Origin: Flavobacteriales bacterium
GTDB taxonomy: Bacteria > Bacteroidota > Bacteroidia > UBA10329
Direction: 5' to 3'
Assembly (NCBI GenBank): GCA_021739625.1
Contig: JAIPBJ010000027.1
Coordinates: 1 to 35,117 of the forward strand
Length of the DNA: 35,117 nt
Below are positions 4,637-33,947 of this stretch, one piece after another; position 1 is the first letter of the stretch, and each line of letters opens with the position of its first letter. The translations under genes and the position numbers were made by a program. Under the pieces are notes generated by a model. That model was not told the DNA's origin, did no database searches, and saw only the letters and a program-made list of their open reading frames with translations.

Positions 4637-7573
4637 CTAAGGTTCATTGAGGGTCAGTCTGTCTTTATCGGGAGGGCCAGCCTTTTTCATCTCCTTGTCA
4701 AGCAGCTCTACTTTCAAGACCAAATCGTCAAGCGTACCGTGAAGCAGGTTGTTCTCTTGCTTGAGTTCTTTGATCGCCTCTATCAACAGTGGTACTATGT
4801 GGCTGTATTCGATGCTTTTCCATCCGTCACTGTCAGTGCTGACAAGTTCTGGAACAACTTTCTCAAGCTCCTGAGCAATGAGTCCGAACTGAATGGTGGT
4901 GTCAAACTTCATGTCTGGAAATTCGTCAGTTCTCCAATAATAGTTTACACCACGCATGGCAAGCACCTTTGACAATGGATCATGAAGGTCGGTCACATCC
5001 TTTTTGAGGCGGGCATCAGAGGTTTCGTTTATCGCATTTGACTTGATCCTTCCTATCACATGCAGGTTGTATGTCGGGGCTGCAGTTCCAATGCCTACGT
5101 TGCCATTGCTTGTGAGAATGGTCATACGGGTGGTTCCACTGGTCTGTAGGGAAAGATTCTCATCATAACTGCCTATGAGCCCCTCATCAACGGTTAACCC
5201 TTTGTTGAAGTAATATCTGACACGGTCTGTTTGTATATGGGCCCAACTGGTATTCTGAGGGCCTATATCGATGTATCCACTATTGGTCTGCATGCGCACT
5301 GCGTTGCCACTTCCTTCAAGAACCCGTGTGTTGGCATCATTGATGTCTATCCAACCGGCCTCGCCATGGCCTACTTTCAGTTTGCCACCCAGATAAAGGT
5401 TGTATGTCTGCCCCGTTCTGGGAAGGTACATTCCATAGGAAGCGAACTCAGCCACACCATCCACACCTTCAGATCTTGCAAGGATTCTGGATCCGTTTGA
5501 ATACATCTCTGTGTTAGCAGCATTGCCCAACCTTAGCCTCCCGTTGATGCTCATGTTGCCACCTCCGCTTATACTGGCCACGTTGCCCGATGCCCCTGTT
5601 CCGGCCTTGAATACCCATCCTCGGCCTGCATTTGCATTCATGGTCAAATAGGTTGCCCAGTCAACGTTGACATAGGCGTGGGCACCGAAGGTTCCAATGC
5701 CAGCGAACATCATTCCGTAGTCAGGCTGGCCGGCGGCAGGACCGTTATAGAGAGAGAGGCCTTTGCCAGAGGTGTTGCTGGTATTGTTGACACCAAAGGC
5801 ATCTGCTCTTGCTGTGCCGGCAGTCCATAATCCGGCCCCCGCCTGAGCGGCAGCGATTTGATTCTGGATGTAGTTGCCACTGCCCGTTGGAAGGTCGGCA
5901 GCTTGGATTGCAGATGACACGTAGTTCGTGCCATTGCCTCGCAAGTAAGTGCCATTTGCGGCTGCATTTGATATTCGGAAACCGACATCGGACGTGATGA
6001 AGCTTGTGGCACGAACCGTGCCTGCTCCCGATGTGCCGACACCGCCTGAAGCTATGCCACCATCAACTCTCAGGAAATTAGCCACATAGATGCCATTGGT
6101 AAATGCATTTGTCGGGTTCAGCCGCAGCCATGCATCGTTGGAGCGGATTGCGACCTTGTTGGTGAGTTCAATGTCACCATTCGAGGCTATGCTCATCTTT
6201 TCTACTCCGGCCGTTGAGAAACCTATAGCATCTGCACTGTGCCAATACATTCCAGTGTTGGGGTCTCCAGTGAATGAAAGGGCGGGAAGCGCTGCCGTAC
6301 CATTCGACATTCTTATTGCTGTGGCATTTGAGAATGTTGCCACACCAGTCCAGGTCTTATTTCCTGCTGCCGTTTGGGTAGTGGTCAGATCGACCCAGTT
6401 CTGGGTGGCCGATCCCGTACCTCCATTGGCCACTGGCAGCACTCCTGTCACTTCCGTGGTAAGGTTGATTCCGCCTCCGGTACTTGAAAGGGTCCCATTG
6501 CCAAGAGTAGTGCGGACAATACCGTTGGTAGCGTACGTATGGAGCCGCGTTGTTCCGTTCGATGCGATGCTCATTCTCACAGAATTGCTCGTACCAAGGT
6601 GAAGTGCCCCTGCATATTTGTTGCCCAGCACGACCGAGTTTCCCTCTGTTCCGGTGAACGTGTTCCCCGATCCATCGCGTCCTGCCACATTGACCACTCC
6701 AAGGATGCCCTGTACAGCGACAGCATCCTGCGAAAGGCGTACAAAAGCCCCACCGGATTCTGTTGCATCATTGCTTCGATCGCCATAAATATCGATACCT
6801 GCAAATCCGTTGCTCTCGACCCTTACGATCTGGTTTGCTGTGACCGCATCTGTCAGGGATCCGATATGAAGGAGCTCGGTAGGTGCGGTGATGGCACCTA
6901 TCCCAATATTTCCATTGGAGATTATCCGCATCCTCTCGACACTGTTTGTTGATAGCGACAGTTCGTTCGCCACAGGGAGGAACATGCCTGTGGTCGTGGA
7001 ATTGGTGAACGAATAGGCAGGAGCTGCGGCTGTACCATTGGCAAATCGTCCGATCCGTCCACTCGTGATGGTGGTTGTGTTCACTATCAACAAGTTACCT
7101 GTCACGCGCGCATTGCCAGTCACATGCAACGGCTGCGATGGTGCAGCATTGCCGATACCTAACCTGCCATTCGTGTTGTCCCAATGGAAATTGGTGTTCT
7201 GTCCGAGATTCGTACCGCTGGTCCAAAAGGCCACCTTGTCCGTTACTCCGCTACCTGTAAGTGGCGTAGTGTTGCCACTCATCAGTCTAACCCAGCCAGT
7301 GCCATCCCAATAATAATGGCCTACGCCCGTAACAGCGCTGGTGTTATAGACCAGAAGCCCTTCGGCAGGTGCTGTCACCGGGGCCGCAGCGGCAAGGTTT
7401 GGAATGCTTATGCGGGGTACGAGAACACCCTGATCGGTAGATCGAACGTCAAGGACGGCCGATGCGTCTCGAGTGGATCCCACATAATCGATGAGTACAC
7501 CGTCTGACTGCGCCAACATTTCTTTGGCGATGGGAAGTAGCGCGAGGGATACGAGAAGTACTTTTCCTTTCAT
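4637..7573 (-). CDS. Tail-fibre-like surface protein with C-terminal S74 chaperone domain
   Basis: This is a 978-residue exported protein. I chose the ATG at 7573 because it directly begins a signal peptide (MKGKVLLVSLALLPIAKEMLAQ). A start 11 codons upstream is possible but would spoil the N-region. Residues about 25-110 are the typical Bacteroidota head ('SAVLDVRSTDQGVLVPR', 'LLVYNT', 'YYWDGTGW'). The long middle consists of repeating 'NGNIGIG', 'PLHV' and 'TGMYW' type segments, as in trimeric fibres. The C-terminus is an intramolecular chaperone/autoprotease (S74) domain beginning 'SDARLKK' at about residue 852. Ser852 and Lys857 have the spacing of the known Ser-Lys self-cleavage dyad. 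A coiled coil follows ('IKELKQENNLLHGTLDDLVLKVELLDKE'). It is probably a trimeric surface fibre. It is the first gene of the cluster. Confidence 0.85.
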   Translation of the reverse strand: MKGKVLLVSLALLPIAKEMLAQSDGVLIDYVGSTRDASAVLDVRSTDQGVLVPRISIPNLAAAAPVTAPAEGLLVYNTSAVTGVGHYYWDGTGWVRLMSGNTTPLTGSGVTDKVAFWTSGTNLGQNTNFHWDNTNGRLGIGNAAPSQPLHVTGNARVTGNLLIVNTTTITSGRIGRFANGTAAAPAYSFTNSTTTGMFLPVANELSLSTNSVERMRIISNGNIGIGAITAPTELLHIGSLTDAVTANQIVRVESNGFAGIDIYGDRSNDATESGGAFVRLSQDAVAVQGILGVVNVAGRDGSGNTFTGTEGNSVVLGNKYAGALHLGTSNSVRMSIASNGTTRLHTYATNGIVRTTLGNGTLSSTGGGINLTTEVTGVLPVANGGTGSATQNWVDLTTTQTAAGNKTWTGVATFSNATAIRMSNGTAALPALSFTGDPNTGMYWHSADAIGFSTAGVEKMSIASNGDIELTNKVAIRSNDAWLRLNPTNAFTNGIYVANFLRVDGGIASGGVGTSGAGTVRATSFITSDVGFRISNAAANGTYLRGNGTNYVSSAIQAADLPTGSGNYIQNQIAAAQAGAGLWTAGTARADAFGVNNTSNTSGKGLSLYNGPAAGQPDYGMMFAGIGTFGAHAYVNVDWATYLTMNANAGRGWVFKAGTGASGNVASISGGGNMSINGRLRLGNAANTEMYSNGSRILARSEGVDGVAEFASYGMYLPRTGQTYNLYLGGKLKVGHGEAGWIDINDANTRVLEGSGNAVRMQTNSGYIDIGPQNTSWAHIQTDRVRYYFNKGLTVDEGLIGSYDENLSLQTSGTTRMTILTSNGNVGIGTAAPTYNLHVIGRIKSNAINETSDARLKKDVTDLHDPLSKVLAMRGVNYYWRTDEFPDMKFDTTIQFGLIAQELEKVVPELVSTDSDGWKSIEYSHIVPLLIEAIKELKQENNLLHGTLDDLVLKVELLDKEMKKAGPPDKDRLTLNEP

Positions 7574-7736
7574 GGCAATGTGTTTTCTCACAATGACGAA
7601 AATCATGAATGGCGAAAATAATACACGCAGATATATTACCGAACAAAAATGTAACGGAAACTTAAATACCCGGAAAATTTTGTCTCAAATCCACCTCAAG
7701 CGCTCAATGCCTTGCATGGAAGAACTGATGCTGGTC

Positions 7737-8273
7737 TCAATTCACCTTCACCCAGAACAGCGATGTATGCCCACGCAGTTCACCGCCCATCGATGAATAA
7801 ACAGGTATGCGCGGGGCTATGGCCAGAACCTTCCTGTCGATGATGTTCCCATCGGGTGTGTATCTCCACTGTTCTCGGAACTTGACAGAATAGAACTCTC
7901 TGCCGTAATCGCGGGTCACGGCCTCGGCCACCATCTGGCCAGTCTCAGTATTCTCGTAATAGACCGTATCGGTAAAGAACAGCTTGGCCCGTACCTCTTG
8001 GAGCGTCATGGGTTGCTCGGTGATCGGGTCGAGGGCGTGCAGTTTGCCTGCAAGCACATCATTGAGCAGGTTCACCATCAGTTCTGAAATGTCGGTGAAG
8101 TCCTCATCATTCAGGTCGGTGTGGAACATGCCGTTGGCATCCACAGCATATTCTACCACTTTGGTATAACCGATATGCGATGTGCTATCGGACGCGGAGG
8201 GCAGTTGGTCTCCGTCTTTGGAAGTGCATGAGCTGATGGCAAGAAGGGCGAGCAGATAGGCTGTGTGTTTCAT
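7737..8273 (-). CDS. GldN-like lipoprotein
   Basis: This 178-residue protein has a lipoprotein signal peptide (MKHTAYLLALLAISSC, acylated Cys at residue 16). Residues about 65-178 resemble the core of the gliding-motility/T9SS protein GldN (PorN). The matching stretches are 'LLNDVLAGKLHALDPIT', 'YYENTETGQMV', 'VKFREQWRY', 'KVLAIAPRIPVY' and 'GHTSLFWVKV'. GldN is usually about 300 residues and continues well past this point, so this is a shorter, stand-alone form. None of gldK, gldL or gldM is nearby. The gene follows the M48 protease by 35 bases on the same strand, which suggests co-transcription and a shared role at the outer membrane or in the periplasm. The family link rests on remembered motifs and is moderately sure. 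Confidence 0.7.
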   Translation of the reverse strand: MKHTAYLLALLAISSCTSKDGDQLPSASDSTSHIGYTKVVEYAVDANGMFHTDLNDEDFTDISELMVNLLNDVLAGKLHALDPITEQPMTLQEVRAKLFFTDTVYYENTETGQMVAEAVTRDYGREFYSVKFREQWRYTPDGNIIDRKVLAIAPRIPVYSSMGGELRGHTSLFWVKVN

Positions 8274-8308: not shown

Positions 8309-9115
8309 TCAGAGGGCATATTTCCTGCCGATGGCCTTTGCCTGCGGCAGATATTCGAGAATGGCCTTGGCACGGCTCTGTGGGTCCGGGTGTGTGCTTA
8401 GGAATTGGGGCGGGCGACTGCCTCCCCCGACTTTTGACATGCGGTTCCAGAACGGAGCGGCCTCGTCCACATTGTAGCCTGCAATGGCTGCAAAGGCCAG
8501 CCCCAGCTTGTCGGCCTCGCTTTCGTGCAGCCGCGAGAATGGGAGAACCGCACCCACCGTGGCAGTTAGCCCATAGGCCTGCGAGAAGAGCTGCCTGGTG
8601 AGTTCGGGCTTCTGTGCAAGGGCCACGTCCAGGGCCAGTCCACCCGCCTGCACCAAAAGTCCCTGACTCATACGCTCGTTGCCATGACGGGCAATGGCGT
8701 GGGCCACCTCATGTCCCATCACCACTGCAAGGCCGTCCATATTCTGGGTCAAAGGGAGGATGCCTGTGTAGAACACCACCTTGCCGCCCGGCATGCACCA
8801 TGCATTCACCTCATTGCTCTGCACAAGATTGAATTCCCATTTGAACCCTGCGACCCTGTCGCCTTCGCCCTTGGTGCGCAGATATTTGGTGGCGGCACGG
8901 GCAATCCTGTCCCCGACCTCTTTCACTTGTGCGGTCTGCGCGTTGGAAGCGGGCATGGCAGGGTTCTGAGCAAGAAACTGCCCATAGCTGGTCAGTGCCA
9001 TGCCTACAAGTTGGCTCTCGGGCAGCAGATTCATCTGCTTTCGGCCTGTGATGGGCACCGTGGAGCATGCCACGAAGGCAAGAATGAAGGCGAACACGAC
9101 AAGTTTCTTAACCAC
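8309..9115 (-). CDS. M48-family metalloprotease lipoprotein
   Basis: This 268-residue zinc peptidase of family M48 resembles the periplasmic BepA/LoiP-type proteases that handle misfolded outer-membrane proteins. The signal peptide ends in a lipobox with Cys17 ('AFVACS'). The zinc site is HEVAH at residues 135-139, with the third ligand Glu200 in 'HESEAD'. 'NEVNAWCMPGGKV' and 'THPDPQSRAK' are also typical of the family. The start is GTG at 9115: no ATG occurs in frame before the upstream stop, and the signal peptide begins directly at this codon. A perfect TAnnTTTG box lies about 25 bases upstream. The gene is probably co-transcribed with the GldN-like lipoprotein that follows. Confidence 0.9.
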   Translation of the reverse strand: MVKKLVVFAFILAFVACSTVPITGRKQMNLLPESQLVGMALTSYGQFLAQNPAMPASNAQTAQVKEVGDRIARAATKYLRTKGEGDRVAGFKWEFNLVQSNEVNAWCMPGGKVVFYTGILPLTQNMDGLAVVMGHEVAHAIARHGNERMSQGLLVQAGGLALDVALAQKPELTRQLFSQAYGLTATVGAVLPFSRLHESEADKLGLAFAAIAGYNVDEAAPFWNRMSKVGGGSRPPQFLSTHPDPQSRAKAILEYLPQAKAIGRKYAL

Positions 9116-21376: not shown

Positions 21377-21649
21377 GAATTCTGACCTTGTTCTTGGGAA
21401 TTCCACCCTCGTTTTCCAGAATTCCTCCCTCGTTTTCCAGAATTCCACCCTCGTTTTCCAGAATTCCACCCTCGTTTTCCAGAATTCCACCCTCGTTTTC
21501 CAGAATTCCTCCCTCGTTTCTCAGAATTTCTCCCTCGTTTCTCAGAATTTCTCCCTCGTTTTCCAGAATTCCTCCCTCGTTTCTCAGAATTCCACCCTCA
21601 TTTTCTGGAATTCCTCCCTCGTTTCTCGGAATTCCTCCCTCGTTTTTGG
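21377..21649. repeat. 21-base minisatellite, 12 clear copies plus one degenerate copy
   Basis: The unit is gaattccaccctcgttttcc plus a, repeated head to tail from 21398 to 21649. A diverged copy precedes it at 21377-21397. Copies differ mainly at the a/t after 'gaattcc' and at 'ttttcca' versus 'tttctca'. Ten of the twelve contain an EcoRI site. Because 21 is divisible by three and the unit lacks stop codons, all six frames are open, giving apparent heptapeptide ORFs such as 'IPPSFSR' and 'NSTLVFQ' that I regard as spurious. It fills the otherwise empty stretch between two minus-strand genes and begins 14 bases after the upstream gene's stop. Confidence 0.92.
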
Positions 21650-30272: not shown

Positions 30273-33200
30273 TTATCTGGCCGCTGCCATTTTCATCAAC
30301 TTCTCTTTGAGCTGCGCCCGTACCTTTTCCAAATGGGCTGCTTCTGCATTCTTCATGCTTTCGGCATGGAGAGTAGTCAATTTCTCCTGTTCGGCCTCAT
30401 ATTTTATACTCAGTTCGCGCTCTGCCGTGGCATAGACCTTCTCTGGGAATTCTGCCAGCGTGCCAGCAATCTCACGCACTGTCATCCATGCTTTGAGGGC
30501 AGCCTCGGTTTCACCCACGATAGCGGCCGGAACAGTATGATGCTGCAGTTCGCCCTTGGAACCGGTGCGGACGATCACGGGCACCTTGCCTTTGCGTTCT
30601 GCGCTCTGCAATCTTATGAACTGCGCCACGTGCATCGGTTCGCCCATCGCCTCGTTCCATAATGTGAAGGACGACTTCCGGTTCTGCCCCGTATAGGCCC
30701 AATCTGCGTAGGTGACCTTATATGCCATCACCTTTTCCTGACCATCCTCCATGTAGCTCAGTTCGCTGACGCACCATTCAGCGTCTGACGAAGGATTGAC
30801 ATCGATGCTCATTTTCGGGAACAGCAGTGTGCTTTCCCTGTTCGGGCTGTAATCGAATTGGATATATGCGCGGCTGTTGGATGCCAAGGAGTGAAGCAGT
30901 TGCATGTTGCCGTGCTCTCCGTCAGGGGTCAACAGCCGTATCACCGAACTGTCGCAGTTTCCCAATGCGCTCACCAGTCCATCGAACAGATGGTCGGGAT
31001 CGGCCAACGAGCCTTGGATCACCCGCACATTGCGTAGGGCAATGAATGGTATGAGGGCCATGGCATCGTGCATCATGTCGGCAATGGCGGTGTGTTCTGG
31101 CGGGTTGACATTGTCCAGCAGGATCACTTTTATGGGCAGCCCTTCGGCCAGCAACTGAGCAAGTGTGTTGGCACCATTGCTCTGTAAAAGTGATTTCCTC
31201 GCAATGAGCAGCATGGGAGGAACGAACGTCCGTTCCTGATCACTGAGGTCGGCCCACGAGAGGTCTGCGATCGCATGGTCGTGATGCGCGGGATTGTATT
31301 TGCCTGTTTCTTCCAACGTGGCCCTGCGCAGCACTTTGATGTTCTCCAGAACATGGCGCAGATGGCCCTGTATCAGCCCTTTCGCCATTTCGGCCGATGA
31401 GCCATCAAAGCAGAGGACAGGAACAGTGAAACAGTTGTCGGGGAAAGTTGCCAGTTCGGCCAATGAGGAATCAAGGGCAATGCAATAGCGGGCCCGTCCT
31501 GTTCCTGTGGCCCCCGACACGATCAGGTCTTTGAGGTCGTGCAGTTCCTTGATGATGTCTGATTTCCTTGAGAGTGAGGCCCTGTCCAGCAATCGTAGAT
31601 GGCGGGCATCGCTCTGGCTCTCTAAAATCTCATCGATGGACACCTTGGCAGTGGTGATCCTGTCAAGCGCACTGCCCAATCCGTTGTCAATCGCTCCGGG
31701 AAGTGCATCGCTGAGCTGTTTCTTCAGATTGGCAGCGATATTCTCAATCTTCTCCCCGATCACCTTTTCCATGGCCTTGAAACCGGGCTGCACCATCGCC
31801 TCGGCCACCGCAGCGACCGTATGGATCATCGCCTTTTCAGATACCCGCGTGTTGGCAGTTGCACCGGTCATGGACATGTAGAAATTCCTGCTCAGCATCA
31901 GGGCTGCCAACGATGGATATTGCCGATCGGCCATTAGCCGCTGAATGGTCTCGGAAGAAGTGTCCGGCAATTGCTCCCAAAGAGCAAACTGCTTTTGAAG
32001 GGATGCATGCTGCTCCTCATTCTCATCGGCCATGCTCAGAGCACCATCGGGGCACACGGACGCGCAGATGCCGCATCCCACACATGCGCTCGGGTCAATG
32101 GCAAGGCTGAAAAGCTCCTTTGCCCCATCATTGAAGAATGTGCCGTTGGCCACCACCTGAAAATCTCCGATGGCCGCTGCAATGGCTTTGAACTCGGCTT
32201 TGAAGGCATCTGCCTTTTCTGCCTGAGGTTTCACCTGTTCCAGCAATTGGTCGAATGCCGGGGTAAGGATCTCACGGAGCATCAGCGAGGAATTCCCAGC
32301 ATTGACGATGGCAGGGATGACCTTGTTGGCCGTCTTGGCAAGATTCTTCACCTGTGGGAACAGTTGAGTGATGTTAACACCGTTGGCCTGTGCCTTTGCT
32401 ATGCCCGACTTGAGAATGGCCTCCATGTCCAACGCCACAGGCGGAATGGCCGCATGTGGGCAGTGAACAAAGCAGTCCCCACATCCTGTGCATTTGGAAC
32501 TGTCGAGCACCGGCACCGATTTCCGCGCCTCAACTGAATGACCGAGACCTGCCGATGCAGAAGGCATTGAAGGGGTGGACTGAAATGGGTCGGCAGTCCA
32601 ATCGGCACTGTCGGTGCCATAGAAAGGGGCCGTGTTGTCGAAGAAGTTGGACAGACGGGAATGGATCGGCCCCTGATTCTTGAACCTCCGCAACGACAAT
32701 GGAATAAATGCGGGAGGAGCAATGGCAGTGCCGTTGGTCGTAGGGTTAGGCACCAACGCCCCGCGATCGGCAAGCTGCGGATAGTCCCGTTTGATGGTCT
32801 GAAAGACCGATTGCCTTTTCGGGAACTCCGAACTTTCGTTGATGTGAGGAATATCGAGAAGGAAATGGTCGGCCTTCAGCTCATTGCGCTCAATACGACC
32901 AATGAAATCCTGAAGATTTGCCGATGCAGGCGAATGGGCATATTGTGCTGAACGGAGCTGCACAGGTCGGCCAGCAAATGTTTCGCACAGCCTTGGGAAC
33001 AATGTGCAGTGCTCATCGGTCAGCTGCTCCACCACCGCAATGCTACTGGCCTTTCCGCATCCGGTCATCAATGTTGAAGGCACGGGATGGTACTGTTTGA
33101 GCAGAACAGCACCAAGCTTGGACCTGCCTTTCAACGTGGCTGTCAGATTGAAAACGTGCCTGTTGTCGCTGAAGATGATCAGGTCTGCCCGATCGGCATC

Positions 33201-33947
33201 TTTCGCAAGGAAGGCCTGATGTTTTCTGATGAACTGTTTTTCAAACTCTCCGAACGTTTGGGCTATGAATTCTTCGACATGCTCGGTGAAAAAGGCCCTG
33301 TGGGCTGCGGCCTGATAGGAGATTCCTTTGGCCGATTTCTGGGCACCGGTCAGCACTGGAATGTCTGCATTGAACTGCTTCGGGATCCTTCTCCTTGTCT
33401 TTCCGAAAAGCATCAGCTGCGATGAGGTGGGTGCGGGGATCCTGTTTCCTCCGTCTCCTAGAAACTCGAACAGCTGGTGGTTCTCAGGAACTACCGGAAT
33501 CGTGTCATCATCATCTGCGATGCGGAACACCACCGCACCGGGAATGAGTGCCAGTTCGGACACGCGGTGGGCAATGATGGTGAGGTCGATGAGTTCCTGA
33601 GCATCGGATGCGAACAGTACGAAGGCCCCGGAATTGGCAAGCCGGGCGGCCATTGCGACCGGGGCCGCCACGACCATAGGTGTCAGATTGCGCACAGCCT
33701 GATGCAGCGTGTGGATGTTCTCGGCCGTGTGTTCGGTGCCGATCCATGCCGAGCAGCGCATTCCACAGGTGCTCATGCCAGCCACGAAAGCAAGATTCCC
33801 AGTGGGGGAGAGCGCTGTTGTGGTTCCGGTCATGTTGCGGCCGGCAGTCTGGTGGGCATCGGGCATGCTCAGACCTTCACTGATCCTGCCCTCCAATTTG
33901 AGCCATGCCTGCTGATAGGATTTCATTGCTTCCATGCAGATGTTCAT
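30273..33947 (-). CDS. Degenerate PFOR-like protein within the rnf operon
   Basis: This 1224-residue protein has the length and domain order of pyruvate:ferredoxin oxidoreductase (PFOR). Residues about 40-240 match PFOR domain I ('SGAFVLFASDAQELIDLTIIAHRVSELALIPG'). Two ferredoxin motifs lie at Cys486/489/492/496 ('CTGCGDCFVHCP') and Cys622/625/628/632 ('CVGCGICASVCP'). The C-terminal part follows the domain VI outline: 'LAEGLPIKVILLDNV' stands where PFOR has 'VLVLDTEVYSNTGGQ', and 'LLHSLASNSRAYIQFDYSP' matches its end. The thiamine-diphosphate motif (GDGW and NTGGQ) is absent, and the CxxC of the proximal cluster, expected near residue 690, is replaced by 'SRNFYMSMTGATANT'. It therefore probably carries electrons but does not oxidise 2-oxoacids. 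A charged coiled coil ends the protein. Its ATG overlaps the rnfB stop (ATGA). Confidence 0.85.
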   Translation of the reverse strand: MNICMEAMKSYQQAWLKLEGRISEGLSMPDAHQTAGRNMTGTTTALSPTGNLAFVAGMSTCGMRCSAWIGTEHTAENIHTLHQAVRNLTPMVVAAPVAMAARLANSGAFVLFASDAQELIDLTIIAHRVSELALIPGAVVFRIADDDDTIPVVPENHQLFEFLGDGGNRIPAPTSSQLMLFGKTRRRIPKQFNADIPVLTGAQKSAKGISYQAAAHRAFFTEHVEEFIAQTFGEFEKQFIRKHQAFLAKDADRADLIIFSDNRHVFNLTATLKGRSKLGAVLLKQYHPVPSTLMTGCGKASSIAVVEQLTDEHCTLFPRLCETFAGRPVQLRSAQYAHSPASANLQDFIGRIERNELKADHFLLDIPHINESSEFPKRQSVFQTIKRDYPQLADRGALVPNPTTNGTAIAPPAFIPLSLRRFKNQGPIHSRLSNFFDNTAPFYGTDSADWTADPFQSTPSMPSASAGLGHSVEARKSVPVLDSSKCTGCGDCFVHCPHAAIPPVALDMEAILKSGIAKAQANGVNITQLFPQVKNLAKTANKVIPAIVNAGNSSLMLREILTPAFDQLLEQVKPQAEKADAFKAEFKAIAAAIGDFQVVANGTFFNDGAKELFSLAIDPSACVGCGICASVCPDGALSMADENEEQHASLQKQFALWEQLPDTSSETIQRLMADRQYPSLAALMLSRNFYMSMTGATANTRVSEKAMIHTVAAVAEAMVQPGFKAMEKVIGEKIENIAANLKKQLSDALPGAIDNGLGSALDRITTAKVSIDEILESQSDARHLRLLDRASLSRKSDIIKELHDLKDLIVSGATGTGRARYCIALDSSLAELATFPDNCFTVPVLCFDGSSAEMAKGLIQGHLRHVLENIKVLRRATLEETGKYNPAHHDHAIADLSWADLSDQERTFVPPMLLIARKSLLQSNGANTLAQLLAEGLPIKVILLDNVNPPEHTAIADMMHDAMALIPFIALRNVRVIQGSLADPDHLFDGLVSALGNCDSSVIRLLTPDGEHGNMQLLHSLASNSRAYIQFDYSPNRESTLLFPKMSIDVNPSSDAEWCVSELSYMEDGQEKVMAYKVTYADWAYTGQNRKSSFTLWNEAMGEPMHVAQFIRLQSAERKGKVPVIVRTGSKGELQHHTVPAAIVGETEAALKAWMTVREIAGTLAEFPEKVYATAERELSIKYEAEQEKLTTLHAESMKNAEAAHLEKVRAQLKEKLMKMAAAR

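Follow-up and report, generated by a model that had tools for sequence, protein, structure and literature searches.

A putative lipoprotein with a GldN/PorN core, encoded apart from gldKLMN in a Flavobacteriales bacterium, and its short relatives

What might the core domain of GldN do when it is encoded by itself, as a short lipoprotein, away from the genes for the ring of the type IX secretion system (T9SS)? The question is raised by a minus-strand gene in the window, by which we mean the whole stretch of 35,117 nucleotides that was analysed. A sequence-only reading had described the product as a short lipoprotein with a GldN/PorN-like core, encoded outside any gldKLMN cluster and next to an M48 protease, and had suggested that it might be a ring accessory, a decoy or a quality-control partner of that protease. 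A profile search, a structure comparison, a search for a full gldKLMN operon in the genome and a test of the conservation of the gene pair were named there as checks. The features concerned are the following:

7737..8273 (-), GldN-core lipoprotein gene, based on the ORF, PF19841, HH and Foldseek comparisons, orthologs and purifying selection
8223..8273 (-), lipoprotein signal peptide and lipobox, residues 1-17, with the modified cysteine C16, sequence MKHTAYLLALLAISSC
7737..8174 (-), GldN/PorN core domain, about residues 34-178, from the Pfam, hhalign and VIA-align spans
8309..9115 (-), M48 metallopeptidase, lipoprotein-like and BepA/LoiP-related, matching PF01435 with 111 bits and the BepA and LoiP models more weakly

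According to the ORF list of the window, the reading frame at 7737-8273 (-) starts with ATG and encodes 178 amino acids. The cysteine of the lipobox LAISSC, C16, is invariant in nine of nine genus orthologs, and every row of the short-form alignments A2 (16 of 16) and A4 (25 of 25) has it as well. The protein thus carries the signal peptide with a lipobox cysteine by which bacterial lipoproteins are recognized. The orthologs, which share 48-53% identity, come from all nine sampled genomes of the genus, including the window's own, and the same nine genomes form the entire sample of its family and order. The closest ortholog pair (L029/L030) showed a pN of 0.045 and a pS of 0.667 over 148 codons, which indicates a real gene under purifying selection; four other pairs gave pN values of 0.118-0.291 with pS near saturation. 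Scans of the window for tRNAs and Rfam families found none, and the scan for promoters and terminators yielded nothing beyond chance. Elsewhere in the window, at positions 21398-21646, a 21-base unit is repeated about 12 times (89% matches) within a plus-strand open frame encoding SFSRIPP-like repeats. The gene at 30273-33947 (-), which directly follows an RnfB-like gene in an RnfC-containing cluster, encodes a 1224-aa protein with ferredoxin-type stretches; none of the 25 NCBIfam matches listed for this protein exceeded its cut-off.

The resemblance of the 178-aa protein to GldN was confirmed at the profile level. The PF19841 (GldN) match reached 26.7 bits (E 5.3e-6), above the gathering score of 23, and aligned residues 46-176 with profile positions 22-145 of 228; a six-frame search of the genome scored the same gene at 25.6 bits. 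Since the gathering cut-off was exceeded and the search with PF19841 across 14 control genomes gave no match at all, the resemblance is beyond chance. Alignment of the nine genus orthologs (A1) with 15 full-length GldNs by hhalign gave a probability of 99.5% and an E value of 1e-22 over 148 columns, with A1 columns 27-174 matching GldN positions 50-203 of 280. Similarly, the profile of 16 short forms, searched against the PDB at an E value of 0.1, found only four sequences, all of PorN, the best with E 2.9e-7. AlphaFold2 models were built from 9 alignment rows (pLDDT 78) and from 25 rows (pLDDT 82). The five top-ranking Foldseek matches of the predicted fold were all PorN (E 1.2e-4 to 7e-4) and the next match had an E value of 0.7, although the TM-scores to PorN, at 0.44-0.50 by query length, were modest. 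In VIA-align, the first model matched PorN with Z 8.4 (116 aligned residues, 3.5 Å; best non-PorN Z 2.4) and the second, built from the deeper alignment, with Z 7.6 (117 aligned residues, 3.8 Å; best non-PorN 3.4), model residues 32-178 being aligned with PorN 43-194 in 9OTS numbering; the low scores of the non-PorN rows leave some room for other folds. The description as a short lipoprotein with a GldN-like core is thus borne out by the reading frame, the lipobox and the profile matches, and the predicted fold agrees with it. Most likely, the protein is a lipoprotein of the outer membrane that consists of a short linker and a single GldN/PorN core domain.

The same protein scored 14.4 bits with the GldN equivalog model TIGR03523, for which the cut-off is 85.9 bits. 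As it exceeds the PF19841 cut-off but misses that of the equivalog, it belongs to the GldN superfamily, yet is not the ring subunit. The genome itself (G000; 3.69 Mb, 95.9% complete) encodes a GldN of its own, scoring 225.6 bits with TIGR03523, in a PorP/SprF-GldK-GldL-GldM-GldN cluster on contig C146, in which each member exceeded its NCBI cut-off. The short form is encoded on contig C30, so the gene indeed lies outside the gldKLMN cluster, which is complete. GldJ was found on contig C172 (384 bits, cut-off 382.9), and 141 matches to Por_Secre_tail were counted. Judged from the genes searched for (PorP, GldJKLMN and the tails, as distinct from translocon genes such as SprA), the T9SS of G000 looks intact and heavily used. 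A weak match to the GldN profile (13 bits, E 0.118) was also seen in a 507-aa open frame of this genome (C118:840-1043 (+), L025). We consider it almost certain that the product of 7737-8273 is a lipidated GldN-core protein separate from GldN.

What the short form lacks is instructive. In the published PorN analysis (PMC12421860), the N-terminal helix 25-37 and the C-terminal helix 249-270 of PorN dock on PorK; the C-terminal helix and the following loop (249-283) anchor PorN to PorK, with F271 and W278 as further anchors, and E235 and N236 form part of the PorN-PorN contact. A241 of PorN was cross-linked to PorM (PMC12421860; mBio paper on the 9OTS structure). The anchoring helices, E235/N236 and A241 all lie outside the shared core 43-194, and the aligned spans leave the N- and C-terminal PorK-docking segments of PorN without a counterpart in the 178-aa protein. 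Because the missing segments are the ones that keep PorN in its place in the ring and include the site cross-linked to PorM (PMC12421860), a role as an ordinary ring subunit is disfavoured. The turning loops N44-W47 and F156-D162, which sit in PorK pockets in P. gingivalis (PMC12421860), fall inside the core common to PorN and the short form. The LYYP-type motif, which PorN also has, occurred in 20 of 21 full-length GldNs and in none of 39 short forms. We dropped the idea that a protein without the DRQRS loop can no longer bind PorK, as P. gingivalis PorN itself has PTNSD at this place.

The short form is not confined to the genus. The ortholog profile had a match in 133 of the 295 genomes of a class sample, mostly to full-length GldN, and 31 stretches with short-frame candidates were chosen among the matches listed, which makes the short-form counts lower bounds. 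At least 30 loci in at least 29 genomes outside the genus encode the short form; the 31st stretch (L093) encodes GldN only. These 30 proteins and the nine genus orthologs make up the set of 39. Variants beyond it are a second short form in G037 (L099, 177 aa) and split frames in L097. Most short forms exceeded the PF19841 cut-off. A loose lipobox pattern was present in 35 of the 39 (that of L091 is seemingly spurious) vs 1 of 21 full-length GldNs, and the four sequences missed by it (L083, L086, L089 and L092) look lipoprotein-like by eye. In a tree of the 39 short forms and the 21 full-length GldNs, a single branch separates the two groups with support 99/98 on 288 columns; on the 167 core columns, the same split received 92/95, which is not beyond doubt, and several short sequences form long branches. 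The best explanation is that the short forms diverged long ago as a branch of their own within the GldN superfamily, keeping only the β-sheet core and carrying a lipid anchor.

Larger samples delimit this family. In a phylum sample of 296 genomes, only one match besides the window's gene lay in an open frame below 250 aa, and it covered profile positions 1-65 alone, i.e. the signal-peptide end. The short family is therefore not universal and looks concentrated in certain families of Bacteroidia. Scanning GTDB contigs with the single sequence detected no relatives; alignment A2 detected 17 loci, all in MAGs with titles such as Flavobacteriales bacterium. The records of two of these relatives (CAMCFW010000059.1 and CAMDOM010000002.1; L100 and L114) are titled Chryseobacterium gleum and are apparently mislabelled; the match positions in them agree with the genus relatives G007 and G008. 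Other arrangements of the domain were also observed: L095:4525-5556 (-) and L096:5200-6216 (+) seemingly encode two tandem GldN-like domains outside gldKLMN, and L098:4698-6440 (+) encodes a 580-aa protein in which a degenerate GldN domain is fused to MORN_2 repeats. Full-length GldN was found in 36 of the 38 short-form genomes (27 of 29 outside the genus), and the two genomes lacking it are 60% and 68% complete. As GldN is present in 261 of the 295 class genomes (88%), this co-occurrence is weak evidence, consistent with a T9SS role, and we abandoned it as proof of one.

The M48 gene does lie on the same strand, 35 bp upstream of the short-form gene, as the sequence-only reading had noted, and both products are lipoprotein-like. 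This arrangement would suit a protein that assists the protease in envelope quality control, be it as its partner, its chaperone or an adaptor for its substrates, and other peptidase families, M20 and M16, are immediate neighbours of short forms in two further lineages, which is weak, after-the-fact support; if peptidase genes presumably have a base rate of 3%, chance alone would place roughly 0.8 of them in the approximately 26 neighbouring positions. The pair was kept, however, in only one of nine genus genomes: orthologs of the M48 gene exist in eight of the nine, yet they lie elsewhere, no M48 homolog was found among the ORFs of the eight other genus loci, and in G008 the two genes are about 59 kb apart on the same contig. 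The adjacency is a coincidence of one genome and the protease is no dedicated partner; with the linkage lost, the conserved pairing and the quality-control role found no support, and we rejected the M48 partnership as very improbable. On the other side of the short-form gene, directly downstream, 4637-7606 (-) encodes a 989-aa protein with a C-terminal S74 chaperone-of-endosialidase domain. Equally rejected, on selection and tree, was the idea of a GldN duplicate decaying on its way to loss. The short form does lack LYYP and the C-terminal third, as might be expected of such a remnant, but the low pN relative to pS, the presence of the gene in all nine genus genomes and the branch that sets the short forms apart from GldN on all kept columns as well as on the core leave hardly any room for it.

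The changing neighbourhoods bear on a further explanation, that the GldN core has been reused as an all-purpose interaction domain of the periplasm, serving a local process that varies by lineage and has nothing to do with secretion or gliding. At six of the eight other genus loci, an FAD oxidoreductase of 541-555 aa is encoded directly upstream, with a 4-bp overlap at five. Families f4 and f46 have an M20-peptidase cluster directly upstream at 8 of 8 loci, family f11 has an M16-peptidase cluster directly downstream at 5 of 5 (one member Pfam-tested in each case), and a MORN_2-type protein is encoded downstream of the short form at five loci of f23 and f8 (three tested). In family f23, the short form is divergent from a TPR-PD40-OmpA cluster at four of six loci; one member of this cluster scored 242 bits with PorE (cut-off 600) and 243 bits with CHU_0125. 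None of the 39 neighbourhoods contains a full-length gldN up to four ORFs away from the short form. As no neighbour is common to all lineages, the neighbourhood leaves the function unsettled. The variety of neighbours and the occurrence of two-domain and fused versions favour a recycled domain; against it stand the strong purifying selection on the core and the retention of the gene throughout the genus, and also the observation that no short form without GldN was seen in genomes at least 90% complete, which the base rate makes weak. We hold this explanation to be a tentative one, with somewhat less than an even prospect.

To the proposal that the protein is a lipid-tethered, non-polymerising GldN-core accessory of T9SS or gliding components, we assign about an even prospect of being right. 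In its favour we counted, besides the profile, fold and T9SS-gene results given above, the PorE-like neighbour at the four f23 loci; against it, the absence of full-length gldN from the neighbourhoods, the change of neighbours between lineages, the PorE-like score, which is below its cut-off and ties with CHU_0125, domain fusions such as GldN-MORN_2 (L098), which suggest that the fold can be reused outside the ring, and the VIA-align result from the deeper alignment (Z 7.6, best non-PorN 3.4). As such an accessory, the short form would sit at the periplasmic face of the outer membrane and may offer a PorN core, the turning loops of which, two in number, fit PorK-type pockets of the FGE fold in P. 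gingivalis. Without the N- and C-terminal ring-locking helices and the PorM cross-link region, it would be tethered and non-polymerising, and could act as an adaptor or as an assembly or capping factor for GldK- or GldJ-type proteins instead of a ring subunit. The protein may be a ring accessory or a decoy, as the sequence-only reading had suggested. A more specific version, in which the protein caps the end of the GldJKN track or the GldKN ring, nucleates it or brakes it, docking in the GldK/GldJ pocket from the membrane side without passing on polymerisation or motor contact, appears unlikely. If it were true, the protein would set where tracks or rings start, stop and disengage from the GldLM motors.

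A high-resolution structure of the T9SS ring has been available only since 2025, and we know of no account of what controls the number, length or ends of T9SS rings and tracks. The short form, as a lipidated and conserved relative of PorN with a single domain, encoded in a genome with a full T9SS, is a concrete candidate for study. In the literature searched, which excluded most subscription journals, no stand-alone or lipidated GldN-core protein was described, and neither was this widespread family of short GldN relatives. For annotation, a PF19841 match by itself does not amount to a T9SS ring subunit, since most short forms pass the cut-off without being GldN.

Among known proteins, the closest is GldN/PorN (TIGR03523; PDB 7PVH, 9OTS, 9MZU, 9MYJ), the periplasmic ring/track subunit of the T9SS, with which the short form shares the core β-sheet domain. 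In contrast to this subunit, it is lipidated, has about 178 aa, lacks the N-terminal PorK-docking helix, the GldN 204-280 region and the LYYP motif, and in the window's genome is encoded outside gldKLMN. GldO, which we take to be the full-length second GldN of Flavobacterium johnsoniae, adjoining GldN, is similar in being a GldN paralog within the same genome; full-length second GldNs were also seen among the genomes analysed (e.g. in G002 and G004) and should not be confused with the short form. PorK/GldK and GldJ are OM-anchored T9SS lipoproteins (PMC12635249), and the short form is predicted to be OM-anchored as well, but their fold is FGE-like (PMC12421860), whereas that of the short form is predicted to be the PorN fold.
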